Assembly: GCA_018402345.1 (NCBI GenBank)
Contig: JAGYIV010000010.1
Span: 248,001-312,000 of the forward strand
Length of the DNA: 64,000 bases
Reading direction: 5' to 3'
Source of the DNA: Terrimicrobiaceae bacterium
GTDB taxonomy: Bacteria; Verrucomicrobiota; Verrucomicrobiia; Chthoniobacterales; Terrimicrobiaceae
This document shows positions 17,198-24,230 of this stretch, in pieces (within the stretch, counting starts at the first letter, position 1; each line of letters starts with the position of its first letter). Under the pieces are notes generated by a model. It was not told the origin of the DNA, made no database searches, and saw only the letters and a list, made by a program, of their open reading frames with translations. The position numbers were made by a program, and so were the translations under genes.

Positions 17198-18118
17198 CTA
17201 TTTCAAGGCCTCCACAATGGTGCCGACGTTGTGCTTCATCATCCCTTCATAGGTTGATGCATCGCCTTTTCCAAGCCCGTCGGCATAGAGCACGCCGCCG
17301 GATCGCACCCCGGTCTCGGCGGTGATTTGCCCGAGCACCTTGGGGTTCTCCAGACTCTCCGCAAAGATTGCCTTCACCCTGCGCTCCTTGATCTCCCGGA
17401 TCAACCTCGTGACATGTTGCGAGGAGGGCTGGCTCGATTTTGTCACCCCCTGCACCGGCAACACCTCAAACCCGTATTCGCTGGCGAGATATCCCAGCGC
17501 GTCGTGAGATGTCACCAATACCCTGTTGGCCTTGGGAAGCGACACCACCTGCAAACGCACCCATTTCTCCAACGCCTCGAGCCGCTGGTCGAATGCCGCC
17601 GCATTCGCTTCGTAACTCTCCCGCCCGTCGGGATCTTGTGCCATCAACGCATCGCGGACCTGCATCACCACCGCGCGTGTGTTGGAAACACTATGCCACC
17701 AGTGCGGATCCATCTCGCCGTGGTGGTGATGATGCCCCTCCTCGCCATGCCCCTCGCAGGCACCCTCGATCGGTGTCACCACATCCCCGCCGGCCACCAC
17801 TCGCACACCGGCATTGGCAAGCACCGGACGCATCCGCTCCAGATACGGCTCGAACCCCAATCCGCCGGCCAACAGAACATCCGCCGTCTCGATCCTTTTC
17901 CAATCCCCAGGCGCCGGCTCGTAGAGATGCGGGTCGACCCCCGCATGGACGATTTCCTCAACCTCGACACGCTCTCCCCCCACATTTCTCGCCACATCCG
18001 CCATCACCGTGTTCAGTGAGGCGATCCTTACCGGCCCGGCCTGCACCCCCGCAGACAGAAAAACCCCGATCACGCCCATCAATAAAAGTCTCAACATCGC
18101 GACACACTTGCCTTTCAT
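17198..18118 (-). CDS. znuA: Periplasmic zinc/manganese-binding protein
   Basis: The first gene of the operon encodes the solute-binding component. A signal peptide (MLRLLLMGVIGVFLSAGVQA) precedes RIASLNTVMADVARNVGGER. Metal ligands are visible: HAGVDPHLYEP, the His-rich loop GEEGHHHHHGEMDPHWWH, TSHDALGYLASEYGF and FAESLENPK. The charged His-rich loop is typical of zinc-binding members. Two starts are possible, ATG 18118 (MKGKCVAMLRLL) and ATG 18097; the first places the start directly after the likely operator, the second has an AAGG at a long 13-base spacing. I list the longer form. Confidence 0.9.
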   Translation of the reverse strand: MKGKCVAMLRLLLMGVIGVFLSAGVQAGPVRIASLNTVMADVARNVGGERVEVEEIVHAGVDPHLYEPAPGDWKRIETADVLLAGGLGFEPYLERMRPVLANAGVRVVAGGDVVTPIEGACEGHGEEGHHHHHGEMDPHWWHSVSNTRAVVMQVRDALMAQDPDGRESYEANAAAFDQRLEALEKWVRLQVVSLPKANRVLVTSHDALGYLASEYGFEVLPVQGVTKSSQPSSQHVTRLIREIKERRVKAIFAESLENPKVLGQITAETGVRSGGVLYADGLGKGDASTYEGMMKHNVGTIVEALK

Positions 18119-18120
18119 AA

Positions 18121-18140
18121 ATTGCAAGTCAATTGCAAAT
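18121..18140 (-). promoter_or_regulatory. Possible Zur/Fur-family operator before znuA
   Basis: ATTGCAAGTCAATTGCAAAT contains two copies of the palindrome TTGCAA five bases apart, immediately upstream of the metal transporter operon. TTGCAA half-sites are common in Fur-family operators. The site lies in the 88-bp divergent region shared with lpdA. No regulator gene is present in the window to pair it with. Confidence 0.4.
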
Positions 18141-18206
18141 ACTCCATCCATTGGGTTTGCATCCGGCGATGAATGCCCTCAGACTGCCGCGCTCAATTTA
18201 AAAACT

Positions 18207-19586
18207 ATGGCTGATTATGATTTGATTGTGGTTGGTGGCGGACCTGCGGGCTACGTGGGTGCGATCCGGGCCGGGCAACTTGGAAAAAAAGTCGCGGTGG
18301 TGGAAATGGACCGCGCCGGCGGCACCTGCCTGAACTGGGGCTGCATCCCCACGAAATCCCTCCTGAAAAACGCGGAGGTCTACCAAACCGTCAAAAACCA
18401 CGCGGGCGACTTCGGGCTCAAGATCGAGGGCCTCTCCTACGAGTGGGACAAGGTCATCGGCCGCAGCCGCAAAGTAGCGGACCGCCTCGCGGGCGGCATC
18501 GAGATGCTCTTCAAGAAAAACAAGGTCGACTACATCCGCGGCGAGGCCGAAATCCCGAAGGAGGGAGTGGTCGAGGTCACAGACAAGGACGGCAAGAAAA
18601 CCAGCCACAACGCGGCGAACATCCTCATCGCCACCGGCGTCGTGAGCCGTGAGATGCCGGGCTTCCCCTTCAATGGCAAAAGCGTCATCGGCAGCCGCCA
18701 GGCCATGGTCCTGCCAACCCAGCCCAAAGACATCATCATCATCGGAGCGGGTGCCATCGGCATCGAGTTCGCCTATTTCTTCAACGCCTTCGGCACGAAA
18801 GTGACCGTGGTCGAGATGATGCCGAACATCCTCCCCGTCGAGGACACCGAGGTCAGCCAGACCCTTGAGAAATCCCTCGCGAAGCAGGGCATCAAGCTCC
18901 TCACCGGCACGAAAGTCGACAAGGCTGAGACCACAAATAAAGGCGTCCGCCTCACCGTCTCGGGGAAAGCCACCGAGACACTCGAAGCCGAGATCGCCCT
19001 CGTGGCCATCGGCGTCTCGCCCCTCATGCCAAAAGGCGTCGCGCTCGAGACCGATCCCAAGGGCTACCTCAAAACCAACGACCGCTACGAAACCAGCGTC
19101 AAGGGCGTCTACGGCGCAGGCGACATCATCGGCCCACCTTGGCTCGCCCACGTGGCCAGCTACGAGGCTGTCCAATGCGTGGAGGGCATCTTCGCCGGAA
19201 AGAAACCAAAAAAAGTCACCGTCTTTCCAGGGTGCACCTACTGCCAACCCCAAGTCGCCAGCGTGGGACTCACCGAGCGCGCCGCTACCGAAAAGGGCAT
19301 CAAGTTCAAGGTCGGCAAATTCCCGTTCATGGCCAGCGGCAAGGCCCTCGCCGTGGGCGAGAGCGAGGGCTTCGTGAAGCTCCTTGTGGGCGAGAAACAC
19401 GGCGAAATTCTCGGCGCGCACATCATCGGGGCTGACGCCACCGAAATGATCGCCGAACTCGGACTGGCCATCACCATGGAGGCGACCTACGAAGAGATCG
19501 TAGCCACCATTCACGCCCACCCGACCCTCAGCGAAGCGGTCCACGAGGCCGCCCACGCCTCTCAGGGCCACGCGATCCACTTCTAA
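18207..19586 (+). CDS. lpdA: Dihydrolipoyl dehydrogenase (E3)
   Basis: The flavoprotein E3 re-oxidises dihydrolipoamide in pyruvate, 2-oxoglutarate and related dehydrogenase complexes. The 459-residue protein has the FAD motif VVGGGPAGYVGAIRAGQLGK, the redox disulfide GGTCLNWGCIPTKS, the NAD motif IIGAGAIGIEFAYFFNAFG, the second FAD motif GVYGAGDI, and the C-terminal active-site base in HAHPTLSEAVHEAA. The ATG at 18207 is the family start. No E1 or E2 genes are nearby, so it is probably a shared E3. A strong terminator follows. Confidence 0.97.
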   Translation: MADYDLIVVGGGPAGYVGAIRAGQLGKKVAVVEMDRAGGTCLNWGCIPTKSLLKNAEVYQTVKNHAGDFGLKIEGLSYEWDKVIGRSRKVADRLAGGIEMLFKKNKVDYIRGEAEIPKEGVVEVTDKDGKKTSHNAANILIATGVVSREMPGFPFNGKSVIGSRQAMVLPTQPKDIIIIGAGAIGIEFAYFFNAFGTKVTVVEMMPNILPVEDTEVSQTLEKSLAKQGIKLLTGTKVDKAETTNKGVRLTVSGKATETLEAEIALVAIGVSPLMPKGVALETDPKGYLKTNDRYETSVKGVYGAGDIIGPPWLAHVASYEAVQCVEGIFAGKKPKKVTVFPGCTYCQPQVASVGLTERAATEKGIKFKVGKFPFMASGKALAVGESEGFVKLLVGEKHGEILGAHIIGADATEMIAELGLAITMEATYEEIVATIHAHPTLSEAVHEAAHASQGHAIHF

Positions 19587-19608
19587 ACTTCGCGCCCCGT
19601 CGCATTCG

Positions 19609-19646
19609 AAGGCGTTCGGCCACCATTTGGCCGGACGCCTTTTTTT
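19609..19646 (+). terminator. Rho-independent terminator of lpdA
   Basis: AGGCGTTCGGCCA and TGGCCGGACGCCT form a 13-bp stem (one G-U pair) with a short CCATT loop, followed by a run of T. It lies 23 bases after the lpdA stop. Confidence 0.9.
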
Positions 19647-19714
19647 CTCGCCTCAAATAAGGGTTCCCACTTTTCATTTCCCCACAGGTGGCTTAATTCA
19701 TTTCTTCTTCAAGC

Positions 19715-20713
19715 ATGAACGGACCCACTCGAAACGCCCCCATCGCGCCTGCCCCCGCCGGTCCGGCATTCAGGATCGCGATGACCCTGCTTGCGGGATT
19801 CCTCCTCGTCCAACTCGCCGCCGTCGGCATCCATTACCTCCCAGGCCTGCGCGACGTGATCGTGGAACGCGCCACCACCTCGCCAAAAGCGGAACCTCAA
19901 CCCACAACCGCAGCCGCGCCTGAACCAACCCCCGCCCAAGCAGCTAAACCAATAGAAGAGGGGCCCGATCCCGCCCTCATGGAAAAAATCACCCGCCTCG
20001 TCGAGGAAAGCGACCAGGCATTCCGCGTCGGCGAGCACGCCCCAGCCATGCAGAAAATCCAGGAAGCCGACACTCTCCTCCCCAACGACCCAGGCATCCT
20101 CCTGCGCATGGCGCGCATTCTGGAACGCAAGGACGAACCAAGCCCAGCCGCCGCAATCTACAACCGCGTCCTCGCCCTTCCCGGACTCCCGCGCGACCTG
20201 CGCGCCCAGACCGAGCGCAAACTTTCCATGATGCGCCTGCCCGAAACCCCCGCGACCCCGACAGTCCAAGCCGCTGAAGAGGGGGCCGACATGCGCGATG
20301 AAACCGGCCTTCAACCTGGAGCCACCCTCGGAATCGTCGACACCCGCATCGCTGATACACCAGGCGGTCAAAAAGTCCTGCGCGTTTCAATCAAATCCCT
20401 CCCGGACACCAAAATCGACCCCTCCCGGGTCACCCTCCATGTCTTCTTCTACGAACGCGACGCATCCGGCACCACTTCGCTCACCGACTCGAAGGTCGTG
20501 CCGGAGTGGATCAGCCCACCGATCGATTGGCTGGACAACGAACCAGAACTCCTCAACGCGACCTACCCCGCCCCTGTTCTCGAAGGCACGTCCTACGCGG
20601 GCTTCGTGGTCGGCGTTTACTACAAGGACGAACTCCAAGACACCCGCGCGGATCCAGGCAACCTCGCCCGCGAACATCCCCTCCCTCTTTACCTTCAGAC
20701 ACCCGCCCCATGA
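19715..20713 (+). CDS. Membrane-anchored TPR protein, first gene of the REC/pseudokinase/FGE operon
   Basis: The 332-residue protein has an N-terminal membrane segment (FRIAMTLLAGFLLVQLAAVG, residues ~19-38), a Pro/Ala-rich linker, and TPR-like helices around residues 85-170 (AFRVGEHAPAMQKIQEADTL, then ILERKDEPSPAAAIYNRVLA). The C-terminal 130 residues are beta-rich (LHVFFYERDASGTTSL; YAGFVVGVYYKDE) and resemble a domain found at the end of many verrucomicrobial TPR proteins, but I cannot name it. Its stop overlaps the ATG of the next gene, so the products are made together. A role in assembling a membrane-associated complex with the downstream proteins is inference. Confidence 0.75.
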   Translation: MNGPTRNAPIAPAPAGPAFRIAMTLLAGFLLVQLAAVGIHYLPGLRDVIVERATTSPKAEPQPTTAAAPEPTPAQAAKPIEEGPDPALMEKITRLVEESDQAFRVGEHAPAMQKIQEADTLLPNDPGILLRMARILERKDEPSPAAAIYNRVLALPGLPRDLRAQTERKLSMMRLPETPATPTVQAAEEGADMRDETGLQPGATLGIVDTRIADTPGGQKVLRVSIKSLPDTKIDPSRVTLHVFFYERDASGTTSLTDSKVVPEWISPPIDWLDNEPELLNATYPAPVLEGTSYAGFVVGVYYKDELQDTRADPGNLAREHPLPLYLQTPAP

Positions 20714-22713
20714 GGATTCTTGTGGCTTTGGGCGCACCGGGCGCTGCCGAATCCCTCGGCAGGTTGCTCGTTGAAATCGGTTGGCCGGCACCCTCGATCG
20801 CCACCAACTCGACCGAGGCTCTCGAGTGGATCGAGGCATCCGGCGGATGCGACATTCTCATTGCCGACACCCACCTCACGCCGATGGACGGATTCACCCT
20901 GCGCGATGAGATTCGCTCACGCCTTCCCGCCCTGCGGGCCATCCTGACCAGCCCGCCCGGCGTCTCCCCGCCACTGGAGCTCCTCGGCAACGACCCCTTC
21001 CTGCCGACCCCGTTCACACCCGCCATCCTCGCCGATTGCCTTCACCAACTGCTCTCCGACAAACCCGTCGCCGCCCCCCTGCAAACGGAAGAAACAGCCG
21101 ACACCCCGCCACCTCCGCCAAGAGAGACACTCATCGGCTCGACCCTTGGCAATTACAGGATCGAGGCGATTGTCGGCGAGTATCCTTGGGAGATTCTCTA
21201 CCACGCCAACCAGACAAATGTCGGCCGCAACGTGATCCTCCACGTCCTCAAGCCGGAGTTCTCCTCCGACCCGGCCGCCGTCACCGCCTTCCAACACCGC
21301 GCAAGCCTCAAAGCGGCACTCGACCATCCGAAAATCGCCTCGGTTTACGAGGGTGGCGAGTGGCGCGGCGTCCACTACTTTTCCATGGAGAACATCTCCC
21401 TCCCCTCGCTTGCTGCCCGCATGCACTCGGGGAAAACCCTCCCCGGCCTCGGTGCCATGGAAATCCTCGCCCTCGTCGCGGAAATCCAAAAGCAACTCGC
21501 CGCCTCGGGCGCGGGTAGCGATTCGATCGATACGGAGGATATTTTTTTCAAACGCGGAAAACCTCCCCGCCTTGCCAATATCGCAGCGCCTCTCGTGGAA
21601 CCTGCCACTCCGCCATCCATCGAAATCGCCCGTCTCGCCTCGATACTGCTCGCGTGCATCGATCCCTCCCCAGCCTCGGAACCCGCCCGAATCATCCTGC
21701 AGCGCGCGGCAAACGCCGCCACCGATCCGCTCGACTGGGAACAACTCGCGGAACTCGCCCGCGCCAGCTTTTCAAGGACACCGGCACCCCCCGCCCCACC
21801 ACCTCCACCCGCACCTCCGCAATCCACCCCCTTCCCTCGCCCTCTCCTCTGGGCCATCGCAGCTGCGGCATTGATTCTCCCGCTCGCTGCCTATCTTCTC
21901 TTCACGGCCCTCAACAGCAGCCACCGCGTCACCATTGATGACCTCGGAACCATGGTCGCCATCCCTGCTGGCACCTTCACCTACCAAGGCAAACCAATCG
22001 ACCTGCCGGAATTCCTCATCTCGAAATACGAGGTCACCATCGCCGAATACGCCGAGTTCCTCGACTTCCTTGAGAAAAATCCCTCATTGGCAACCTCATT
22101 CGACCACCCGGACCAACCACCAGGAAAATCCCACATTCCGCGCAACTGGGCCGACAGGACGGATGTCACCCCGCCCCACCCGGGCTACTTCAACCGCGTC
22201 AAACGCTGGGGCCAATACCAAGGCGCCCCGCTCACCCTGGACTCGCCGGTCTTCGGCGTGGATTGGTTCGACGCCTACGCCTACGCCAAATGGAAAGGCC
22301 ACCGCCTGCCCACCGAGCAGGAATGGGAAAAAGCCGCTCTCGGCCCGAATGGCTCCGCGTTCCCTTGGGGAGATTCAGCCGACCCGAAACGCGCCAACAC
22401 CGGCAAGGACTACACTCCGAACCCCGATCCGAAAACCGGCGGCGACATCGATGGATTCAAACGCTGGAGTCCCGCAAACCAACCCGCCACCGATACCAGC
22501 GGATCGGGCGTCATAGGCACTTCGGGCAATGTCTCGGAGTGGACCGCAACCCAACTGGACCGCCCGAACGGCGCAAAGACCGCCGTCATTCGCGGGGGAA
22601 ACTGGAAGACCAACCCGTCTCCAGCGACATTCCGCATCACCCGCCTCCCTCCCACCCACTCAGACGAGGCCCTCGGCTTCCGCACAGCCATGGACCCGCC
22701 GAAAACACCATGA
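20710..22713 (+). CDS. Receiver - pseudokinase - TM - FGE-like fusion protein
   Basis: A 667-residue protein with an unusual domain order. Residues 1-115 resemble a response-regulator receiver (D53 in LIADTHLTPMDGF). Residues ~143-355 follow the Ser/Thr kinase fold (GNYRIEAIVGEYPWEILYHA, then VILHVLKPEF with K181), but there is no HRD loop or DFG, so it is most likely a pseudokinase. A Pro-rich linker (357-370) leads to a membrane helix at ~379-400, and residues ~412-662 are an FGE-sulfatase/SUMF1-like domain (GTFTYQGKPIDLPEFLISKY, RLPTEQEWEKAA, GTSGNVSEW, RGGNWKTNP). The FGE active-site cysteines are absent. The cytosolic half may sense phosphorylation or a ligand while the FGE-like half lies outside the membrane. 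Confidence 0.8.
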   Translation: MRILVALGAPGAAESLGRLLVEIGWPAPSIATNSTEALEWIEASGGCDILIADTHLTPMDGFTLRDEIRSRLPALRAILTSPPGVSPPLELLGNDPFLPTPFTPAILADCLHQLLSDKPVAAPLQTEETADTPPPPPRETLIGSTLGNYRIEAIVGEYPWEILYHANQTNVGRNVILHVLKPEFSSDPAAVTAFQHRASLKAALDHPKIASVYEGGEWRGVHYFSMENISLPSLAARMHSGKTLPGLGAMEILALVAEIQKQLAASGAGSDSIDTEDIFFKRGKPPRLANIAAPLVEPATPPSIEIARLASILLACIDPSPASEPARIILQRAANAATDPLDWEQLAELARASFSRTPAPPAPPPPPAPPQSTPFPRPLLWAIAAAALILPLAAYLLFTALNSSHRVTIDDLGTMVAIPAGTFTYQGKPIDLPEFLISKYEVTIAEYAEFLDFLEKNPSLATSFDHPDQPPGKSHIPRNWADRTDVTPPHPGYFNRVKRWGQYQGAPLTLDSPVFGVDWFDAYAYAKWKGHRLPTEQEWEKAALGPNGSAFPWGDSADPKRANTGKDYTPNPDPKTGGDIDGFKRWSPANQPATDTSGSGVIGTSGNVSEWTATQLDRPNGAKTAVIRGGNWKTNPSPATFRITRLPPTHSDEALGFRTAMDPPKTP

Positions 22714-23642
22714 AATCCCTCCTCTGCCTTTTCTTTTTCACCCTCGTCCTGACGCCGCTCGCCCAGGCGCAACTCCAGGTGAACATCGCACTCAAGCGCT
22801 CGCTCTACGTCTCCTACGAACCCCTCGTCGTTAACGTGACCGTCCAGAACCTCACCGGCAACTCCCTCCACCTCGCCGATGCAGAGGCCGCCCCGTGGTT
22901 CGGGTTTCAGATCGAAACCCTCGACGGACGCCCCCTCGCTCCACGCACCTCCCGCTACTCGAACGCTCCGATCATGATCCCGGCCGGCGGAAAAATCTCC
23001 CGCTCGATCAACCTCACCCCCCTCTTCCCCATCGCAGAATTCGGTGGCTACCGCGTCCGAGCGAACATCCACGACGCCTCAAGAAGCCAATTTCACACCT
23101 CTCCGCCCCTCACCTTCGAAATCACCGAGGGCCGTCCGCTCTTCAAAAAAACCGTCGGTGTGCCCGCCGACCAACCCGGCGGCGGCGGCATGCGCGACAT
23201 CACCCTCATGACCCACCGACTCCCCGCGAGCACACAACTCTACCTCCGCATCCAGGATGCAAAAACCGGCACCGTCTACTGCACCCACCGCCTCGGACGC
23301 ATCGTCTCCTACGGCACCCCGCAGATCGAACTCGATGCGAAAAACACCATCCACATCCTTCAAAATGTCGCGCCAAAAGCATTCCTCTACTCCCGCATCG
23401 GCCTGAACGGCCAGGTGCTGGACCGCAAAACCTACAACCAACTCTCCAAGCGCCCGGGATTGAAAAAAACGGCTGACGGCGGGTATCAAGTCTTCGGAGC
23501 CTTGCTCATCGACCCCAATGAGGCCGCAGCCAAAGCCGAACAACCCCTCCCCTCACTCTCGGACCGCCCTGTGCCCCTCCCCAGCGGCAGCGACATCAGC
23601 AACCCAGAGGATGCCCGCCCGAAAAACCTGCTCTCGCGCTGA
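22710..23642 (+). CDS. Secreted protein of unknown function, third gene of the operon
   Basis: The 310-residue protein has a clear signal peptide (MKSLLCLFFFTLVLTPLAQA, cleavage after AQA). The mature part looks like immunoglobulin-like beta sandwiches: LYVSYEPLVVNVTVQNLTGN and YRVRANIHDASRSQFHTSPP fit strand patterns used for binding. The C-terminal third is Pro-rich and disordered. The ATG overlaps the upstream TGA, placing it in the same operon as the receiver-pseudokinase-FGE fusion. I do not recognise the family; a periplasmic partner for the FGE-like domain is a reasonable guess only. Confidence 0.7.
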   Translation: MKSLLCLFFFTLVLTPLAQAQLQVNIALKRSLYVSYEPLVVNVTVQNLTGNSLHLADAEAAPWFGFQIETLDGRPLAPRTSRYSNAPIMIPAGGKISRSINLTPLFPIAEFGGYRVRANIHDASRSQFHTSPPLTFEITEGRPLFKKTVGVPADQPGGGGMRDITLMTHRLPASTQLYLRIQDAKTGTVYCTHRLGRIVSYGTPQIELDAKNTIHILQNVAPKAFLYSRIGLNGQVLDRKTYNQLSKRPGLKKTADGGYQVFGALLIDPNEAAAKAEQPLPSLSDRPVPLPSGSDISNPEDARPKNLLSR

Positions 23643-23645
23643 TCC

Positions 23646-24230
23646 TCAGCCCGCAAGCGGCCCCCGCACCTCCGCCTCCAGCGCCCTTCCAAGCAACTCC
23701 AGGTAATCATCCCGCGGAATCTCCAACCCGCCGAACCCCGCAAGGTGCGGCGTCACCCACTGCGTGTCGTGCAGCAAAAATCCCCCCTCGAGCAACAGAT
23801 CGTTCAGCCGGCACAATGCCACCTTCGAGGCCCCGGGCACCGTGTGGAACATCGATTCCCCGAAAAACGCCCCGCCGATCGCAATCCCATAAAGCCCGCC
23901 GGCCAACCTCCCTCCACGCCAGACCTCGACCGAATGCGCATGCCCCATCGCATGCAACTCCACACAACTCCGCAAAATCGTGCCGTCGATCCACGTCTCC
24001 TCCCGCCCGGCGCATCCACGCACCACCTCCTCGAAGCACGTGTTGATTCGCACCTCCCAAGCCGGATCCCTCAACACCGCCCGCGCGCCGTGAGGCACAT
24101 GAAACCCCTCGATCGGCAGAATCCCCCTTGGGTCGGGCGAGAACAACCTCAACTCGCCGCCCGCCGCCATCGGAAACACCCCGCGACGATACAAATCCAA
24201 CAACACTTCGGGCGGAATCATGTTTGCCAT
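23646..24230 (-). CDS. aat: Leucyl/phenylalanyl-tRNA-protein transferase
   Basis: Aat attaches Leu or Phe to proteins with an N-terminal Arg or Lys, marking them for ClpAP through the N-end rule. The 194-residue protein carries the family motifs YRRGVFPMA, WIDGTILRSCVELHAMGHAH, GGLYGIAIGGAFFGESMFH and LLHDTQWVTPHLAGFGG. It is slightly short but complete. The gene runs convergently with the secreted-protein gene, leaving three bases between stops. Confidence 0.95.
   Translation of the reverse strand: MANMIPPEVLLDLYRRGVFPMAAGGELRLFSPDPRGILPIEGFHVPHGARAVLRDPAWEVRINTCFEEVVRGCAGREETWIDGTILRSCVELHAMGHAHSVEVWRGGRLAGGLYGIAIGGAFFGESMFHTVPGASKVALCRLNDLLLEGGFLLHDTQWVTPHLAGFGGLEIPRDDYLELLGRALEAEVRGPLAG

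Follow-up and report, generated by a model that had tools for sequence, protein, structure and literature searches.

A conserved three-gene operon in Verrucomicrobiota built around a membrane protein with receiver-like, pseudokinase and FGE-like domains

The locus and its three genes

The stretch of DNA analyzed here (the window) consists of 64,000 nucleotides of contig JAGYIV010000010.1 (positions 248,001 to 312,000; assembly GCA_018402345.1) from a Terrimicrobiaceae bacterium, and it contains a group of three open reading frames (ORFs) on the forward strand, which we refer to as genes 1, 2 and 3 (Table 1). Gene 1 encodes a putative membrane protein with tetratricopeptide repeat (TPR)-like helices, gene 3 a putative secreted beta protein, and gene 2 a fusion of a receiver-like domain, a kinase-like domain, a probable membrane helix and a domain related to formylglycine-generating enzyme (FGE) and SUMF1. 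At both junctions the ORFs overlap by four bases (ATGA). A first-pass annotation, made from the sequence of the window, had taken these overlaps as the sign of a single unit, and both the junctions and the conserved gene order described below agree with that view.

Table 1. Coordinates of the features at the three-gene locus, given as positions in the window.
Feature	Position	Strand	Remarks
Terminator-like stem-loop	19608..19642	+	3' of the upstream lpd-like gene; 15-pair stem followed by a T run; consensus match only
Gene 1, membrane-anchored TPR protein with C-terminal beta domain (predicted)	19715..20713	+	332 amino acids; ORF, orthologues in the order, AF2 model
Gene 2, pseudo-receiver, pseudokinase, membrane helix and FGE-like domain (predicted)	20710..22713	+	667 amino acids; ATG at 20710
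Receiver-like domain, residues 1-118	20710..21063	+	D53 retained; acidic pair and Lys missing
Pseudokinase domain, about residues 140-350	21127..21759	+	H178 for the VAIK Lys, S272 for the HRD Asp, N290 for the DFG Asp
Probable membrane helix, residues 377-401	21838..21912	+	hydrophobic stretch
FGE/SUMF-like domain, residues 414-660	21949..22689	+	no cysteines; probably periplasmic
Gene 3, secreted tandem beta-sandwich protein (predicted)	22710..23642	+	310 amino acids; ATG at 22710; no Pfam family

The kinase-like domain of gene 2 has lost its catalytic residues

A PknB-like stretch was detected at residues 148-257 of the gene 2 protein (NCBIfam PknB, E 2.5e-13, below the model cut-off). The Pfam Pkinase family is reported in 13 of 21 aligned gene 2 orthologues, not in the window's own protein, and DUF4388 in four of the 21; elsewhere in the window's genome the Pfam kinase model has five matches above its cut-off, none of them at this locus. 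Among the 66 gene 2 sequences from the fetched loci, none has the HRD Asp and none contains an HRD string; the DFG Asp is likewise absent from all 66, being replaced by Asn in 61, His in three and Gly in two, and the VAIK Lys is kept in 16. The DFG string present in one of these loci (L022) sits near the start of the domain and not at the motif position. Three kinases of other families from the fetched loci, aligned in the same way as a control, have HRD in all three cases, and the one in which the DFG column could be read has Asp there. Because both catalytic Asp residues are missing from every one of the 66 sequences, the kinase domain of gene 2 is, to judge by its motifs, dead in all sampled relatives. 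The lack of HRD and DFG that the first-pass annotation had read in the window's copy is therefore a property of the whole sampled family.

The receiver-like domain is worn to different degrees

The amino-terminal domain is matched by the Pfam Response_reg model at residues 14-80 (E 0.0014, under the curated cut-off). The window's copy keeps D53 and S81, L7 and G8 stand in place of the acidic pair, and T100 replaces the conserved Lys; because the acidic pair and the Lys are missing, it is probably a pseudo-receiver. Across the 56 relatives with a readable receiver, the full set of acidic pair, Asp and Lys is present in 13, and position 53 is occupied by Asp in 23 and by Glu in 25; within the window's own genus the full set is found in none of 12, with Asp at position 53 in four (the window's included) and Glu in eight. 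No receiver domain was seen by profile in the eight loci of family f15 that carry gene 2. The residues thus indicate a receiver that is worn out in some lineages, and of the original description of a phosphate-responsive receiver with D53, the Asp stands, whereas the responsiveness is not supported in this genome.

In two loci of genus g4 (L032 and L033) a tandem-repeat linker separates receiver and kinase and the frame looks broken, with a run of unresolved bases in L033. Since the break lies in the repeat linker and the L033 bases are unresolved, a frameshift or an assembly error in repeat length appears likelier than two separate genes.

The FGE-like domain is the best conserved part of gene 2

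The Pfam FGE-sulfatase model (PF03781) matches residues 414-660 above its cut-off (E 3.3e-36), and the same domain has subthreshold matches to the models of two enzymes with a different chemistry, EgtB and SenA. There is no cysteine anywhere in the window's domain. At the two FGE active-site positions, which were placed according to the FGE motif, Cys was found in none of the 65 sequences readable at the first and in none of the 63 readable at the second, so the absence of active-site cysteines described at the outset extends to the relatives. On average, pairs of sequences are 52% identical in the FGE-like domain, against 36% in the receiver and 33% in the kinase (calculated from 29 of the 37 sequences aligned, with eight partial or broken ones left out), which makes the outer domain the most constrained part of the protein in the order. 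The f15 loci have an FGE-like domain without its middle stretch. At L054 (6549-7952) the middle gene consists of the receiver and kinase parts without an FGE domain, and is flanked by intact genes 1 and 3.

Genes 1 and 3

The AF2 model of gene 1 (predicted local distance difference test score, pLDDT, 79; predicted template modelling score, pTM, 0.42) has a helix at residues 17-54, TPR-like helices at 86-173 and a beta domain with strands between 205 and 313. Its earlier description as a membrane TPR protein is supported by the predicted helix and the TPR-like helices of the model, whereas the Pfam TPR matches are below cut-off; a fold search, chiefly of the TPR block, gave generic matches, with many TPR proteins tied. 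Much of the TPR stretch is absent from gene 1 in two f13 loci (L078 and L128), and since the stretch is kept in loci devoid of gene 2 such as L075, the link between TPR loss and gene 2 loss is loose. In family f20 (L111-L113) gene 1 stands beside an lpxB-like gene, named by eye; two of these three genomes, G064 and G070, yielded no gene 3.

The gene 3 protein has a signal-peptide-like start and beta-sandwich domains in its AF2 model (pLDDT 84, pTM 0.65), in keeping with the secreted beta protein proposed at first. In a fold search, chiefly of the first domain, residues 21-141 appeared as a common Ig/CARDB-like sandwich (best Z about 12). The protein matches no Pfam family, and no match of its profile to a solved structure had an E value better than 0.055. 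In one locus (L070, 8704-9546) a lone gene 3 lies just ahead of an mreB-like gene, with other cell-shape-like genes nearby; these names were given by eye, from the first residues only.

Distribution and linkage of the three genes

The middle protein was matched in 53 of 58 genomes, its own included, the weak matches being to single domains. From 40 order-level loci we set aside L026 (where the contig stops behind the receiver), L054 (which lacks an FGE domain) and L057-L060 (other proteins), and in the 34 that remained, with kinase and FGE domains in one frame, the order gene 1-gene 2-gene 3 is intact in 29. In the other five, gene 3 lies about 2.2 kb further away (L044) or on another contig (L049), no gene 1 is recognised (L048), or the locus begins inside gene 2 (L055 and L056). 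Of the 32 gene 1/2 pairs, 20 overlap by four bases, as do 20 of the 34 gene 2/3 pairs; starts were picked closest to the preceding stop, a choice that favors overlaps.

All three genes were also searched for in 236 genomes of the class, in which the loci for inspection were picked for spread and not at random. Gene 3 is present in 175 of these genomes, three of which have two matches each. At E <= 1e-40, gene 2 was matched in 112 genomes; G134 and G260 match by the FGE domain alone and were dropped, leaving 110 for the co-location count. Gene 1 is found in 222 genomes at E <= 0.001, plain TPR matches included, and its places in 124 genomes, among the matches listed, were taken into that count. 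All three genes are close together in at least 40 of the 110 genomes; at least 24 have only genes 1 and 2 together and at least two only genes 2 and 3. Where gene 2 is not listed, genes 1 and 3 are adjacent in at least 11 genomes, and in two of those a receiver-only gene lies between them. In a search of the phylum, gene 1 was matched at E <= 1e-12 in 46 of 240 genomes, seven of them outside the class, and in the class searches two reduced genomes of family f7 (G031 and G040) matched none of the three genes.

Genes 2 and 3 are nearly always single copy and are spread over many families rather than patchy. The loci form a series of states, from the full three-gene set, through the f15 loci without a detected receiver and a receiver-only gene between genes 1 and 3 (L076 and L077), to genes 1 and 3 alone (L075, L078 and L079). 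The recurrence of the three-gene order across many families is far more than chance would give, and both the domain order and the gene neighborhood proposed for search in the first-pass annotation proved to be conserved. A recent origin of gene 2 as a chimera in close relatives, raised there as a possible objection, was rejected, given that the fused form is found across the order and beyond and that the g4 split is probably explained by the repeat linker.

Neighboring genes and other features of the region

Genes next to the operon were surveyed in 100 loci, 96 of them with an anchor gene. An HtrA-like protease gene lies upstream on the same strand in 12 of the 100 (families f1, f9, f12 and f13; in L053 with another gene between), and weaker HtrA-like matches are on the opposite strand in five more. 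An ExbB-like gene was found in six loci and a long TPR protein in five (families f1, f9, f10, f12 and f13), and at four loci (families f30, f37, f40 and f44) gene 1 has genes for an ABC-2 permease, ABC_transp_aux and DUF4340 in its vicinity, the permease and ABC_transp_aux being named by Pfam in L125 and DUF4340 in all four. The window's genome has relatives of HtrA and DUF4340, and it has ExbB, ExbD and the long TPR protein grouped elsewhere on the same contig, unlinked to the operon. The neighbors found in some relatives suggest an envelope machine.

A search of positions 19400 to 24000 gave no sigma-70-like promoter. Terminator-like sites in the region number six, compared with 5.2 expected from shuffled sequences, and the stem in Table 1 is the longest. 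A role as target of a diversity-generating retroelement was rejected, since the single reverse transcriptase match in the genome is about 316 kb away on the same contig. On the minus strand of the window, a secreted protein with a histidine-rich run (17198-18151) adjoins ABC-transporter-like genes and, read by eye, has the look of a zinc uptake cluster.

A proposed role for the operon and its alternatives

Because the kinase is dead, the receiver worn and the FGE-like domain devoid of its active site, gene 2 probably acts by binding partners and not by chemistry, which supports the original suggestion of a sensor or scaffold rather than an enzyme, the catalytic residues having been lost in all sampled relatives. 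The reading that we favor, and that we regard as about evenly poised between right and wrong, is that the operon encodes a complex of the inner membrane and periplasm, composed of a non-catalytic scaffold-receptor (gene 2) and two adaptors, that takes part in an envelope process. The gene 2 protein would span the inner membrane and work by binding; its FGE-like domain, predicted to lie outside that membrane, would bind a partner, most likely the beta domain of gene 1, gene 3, or an envelope glycan or peptide, and on the cytosolic side the pseudokinase and the receiver-like domain would dock partners and relay a conformational signal. In the window's genus the receiver, probably no longer switchable by phosphate, may have become a fixed docking surface. 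The gene 1 protein would be a TPR adaptor anchored in the membrane and the gene 3 protein an adaptor in the periplasm, and the pair formed by these two genes persists in some genomes that lost gene 2. In some relatives the envelope process served by the complex may also be tied to HtrA, ExbB/ExbD and the long TPR protein.

Several observations weigh against this proposal. In five of the 66 gene 2 sequences, the window's copy included, there is an Asp one position ahead of the HRD Asp column, which leaves a small doubt about the alignment register. The 13 receivers with a full set and the 16 kinase domains with the VAIK Lys suggest that some members may still make use of phosphate or nucleotide. 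The HtrA, ExbB and DUF4340 neighbors are missing at most loci, the window's own among them. Finally, up to 44 of the 110 genomes have no recognised partner beside gene 2, so the three genes need not always act together; this figure is an upper bound, L131-L133 having been counted as without partner even though genes 1 and 2 are adjacent there.

These partnerless copies of gene 2 would also fit three unrelated genes that share nothing except transcription, as would the finding that gene 3 lacks the other two in 11 of the 20 class-level loci fetched for it, and that gene 1 has no recognised partner in many of the 20 loci fetched for gene 1. We consider this reading fairly unlikely, given that genes 1 and 2, genes 1 and 3, or all three stand side by side in many families.

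A receptor switched by phosphate, in which phosphorylation of the receiver by a histidine kinase is signaled through the pseudokinase to the outer domain, would account for the complete receivers and for the D53 and S81 retained in the window, and seems unlikely in view of the window's genus, with no full set and mostly Glu in place of Asp, and of the f15 loci, which carry gene 2 and show no receiver by profile. It is quite improbable that gene 2 is a non-canonical enzyme, whether a nucleotide-binding pseudokinase with other chemistry or an FGE-like domain with another activity: the VAIK Lys in a minority of sequences and the subthreshold EgtB and SenA matches speak for it, and against it stand the universal loss of the HRD and DFG Asp, the His in place of Lys in the window and the lack of Cys at the FGE positions.

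A defense or conflict module is very improbable, for although the PADLOC models of the PD-T4-6 kinase match gene 2 at residues 143-258 (E 5.4e-15), and kinase-like and FGE domains occur in such systems, the match is limited to the kinase stretch, no such match was obtained for gene 1 or gene 3, and genes 2 and 3 are nearly always single copy and spread widely, not patchily, over the families. Two papers (PMC7159879, PMC9612521) describe FGE-like domains that act as effectors or sensors next to conflict systems.

Beyond the scaffold-receptor complex itself, it may tentatively be supposed that a proton-motor set (ExbB/ExbD and the long TPR protein), HtrA and the three genes make up one widespread, single-copy and undescribed envelope system of Verrucomicrobiae, in which an ancestral kinase receptor would have turned into a purely structural membrane hub, its outer domain kept and its inner signaling domains decaying by lineage, a proposal that we regard as rather doubtful.

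Comparison with known systems and significance

Gene 2 resembles the Hanks-type transmembrane Ser/Thr kinases (PknB-like) in its kinase fold, single membrane helix and outer domain, with sequence similarity to PknB and StkP, but it differs from them by the absence of the HRD and DFG Asp, by an FGE-like instead of a PASTA domain and by the receiver-like domain in front. Chlamydial proteins are similar in having a kinase fused to an FGE-like domain. A solved chain named as a Ser/Thr protein kinase (5nxl_A) is related to the FGE-like domain of gene 2 (2e-29; compared by this domain alone); unlike kinase-FGE fusions, gene 2 has a dead kinase, an added receiver-like domain and a partner gene on either side. 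Among solved structures, SUMF2 is the best match to the FGE-like domain (8.5e-37 with the family profile), and in contrast to both SUMF2 and FGE/SUMF1 the gene 2 domain lacks active-site cysteines and is fused to a membrane pseudokinase.

There is also a weak FGE-like match to GldK/PorK of the type IX secretion ring (TIGR03525, E 5.5e-11, 42.4 bits, far below the cut-off of 350). The ABC/ABC_transp_aux cluster near gene 1 in four families is reminiscent of GldA/F/G, and receiver and kinase parts are not known in GldK. The TPR block of gene 1 is like that of LpoP and other TPR envelope adaptors (Z 13.4, root-mean-square deviation 2.1 over 92 residues); gene 1 differs from LpoP, itself tied with many TPR proteins, by its extra C-terminal beta domain.

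The first-pass annotation knew of no described counterpart to this layout. No description of it was found among the titles and abstract openings obtained from the open-access literature, subscription papers and preprints being mostly outside reach, and the layout itself is widespread.

Few well-studied dead kinases are known in bacteria. Here a dead kinase is kept in relatives across a class, with a set of states that run from a full receiver, through a worn receiver, no receiver and a receiver alone, to genes 1 and 3 alone, and this natural series makes the role of a transmembrane kinase after the loss of catalysis directly testable. Gene 3 belongs to no Pfam family and yet is present in most genomes of the class, so that it may represent an undescribed envelope component in a common group of bacteria.

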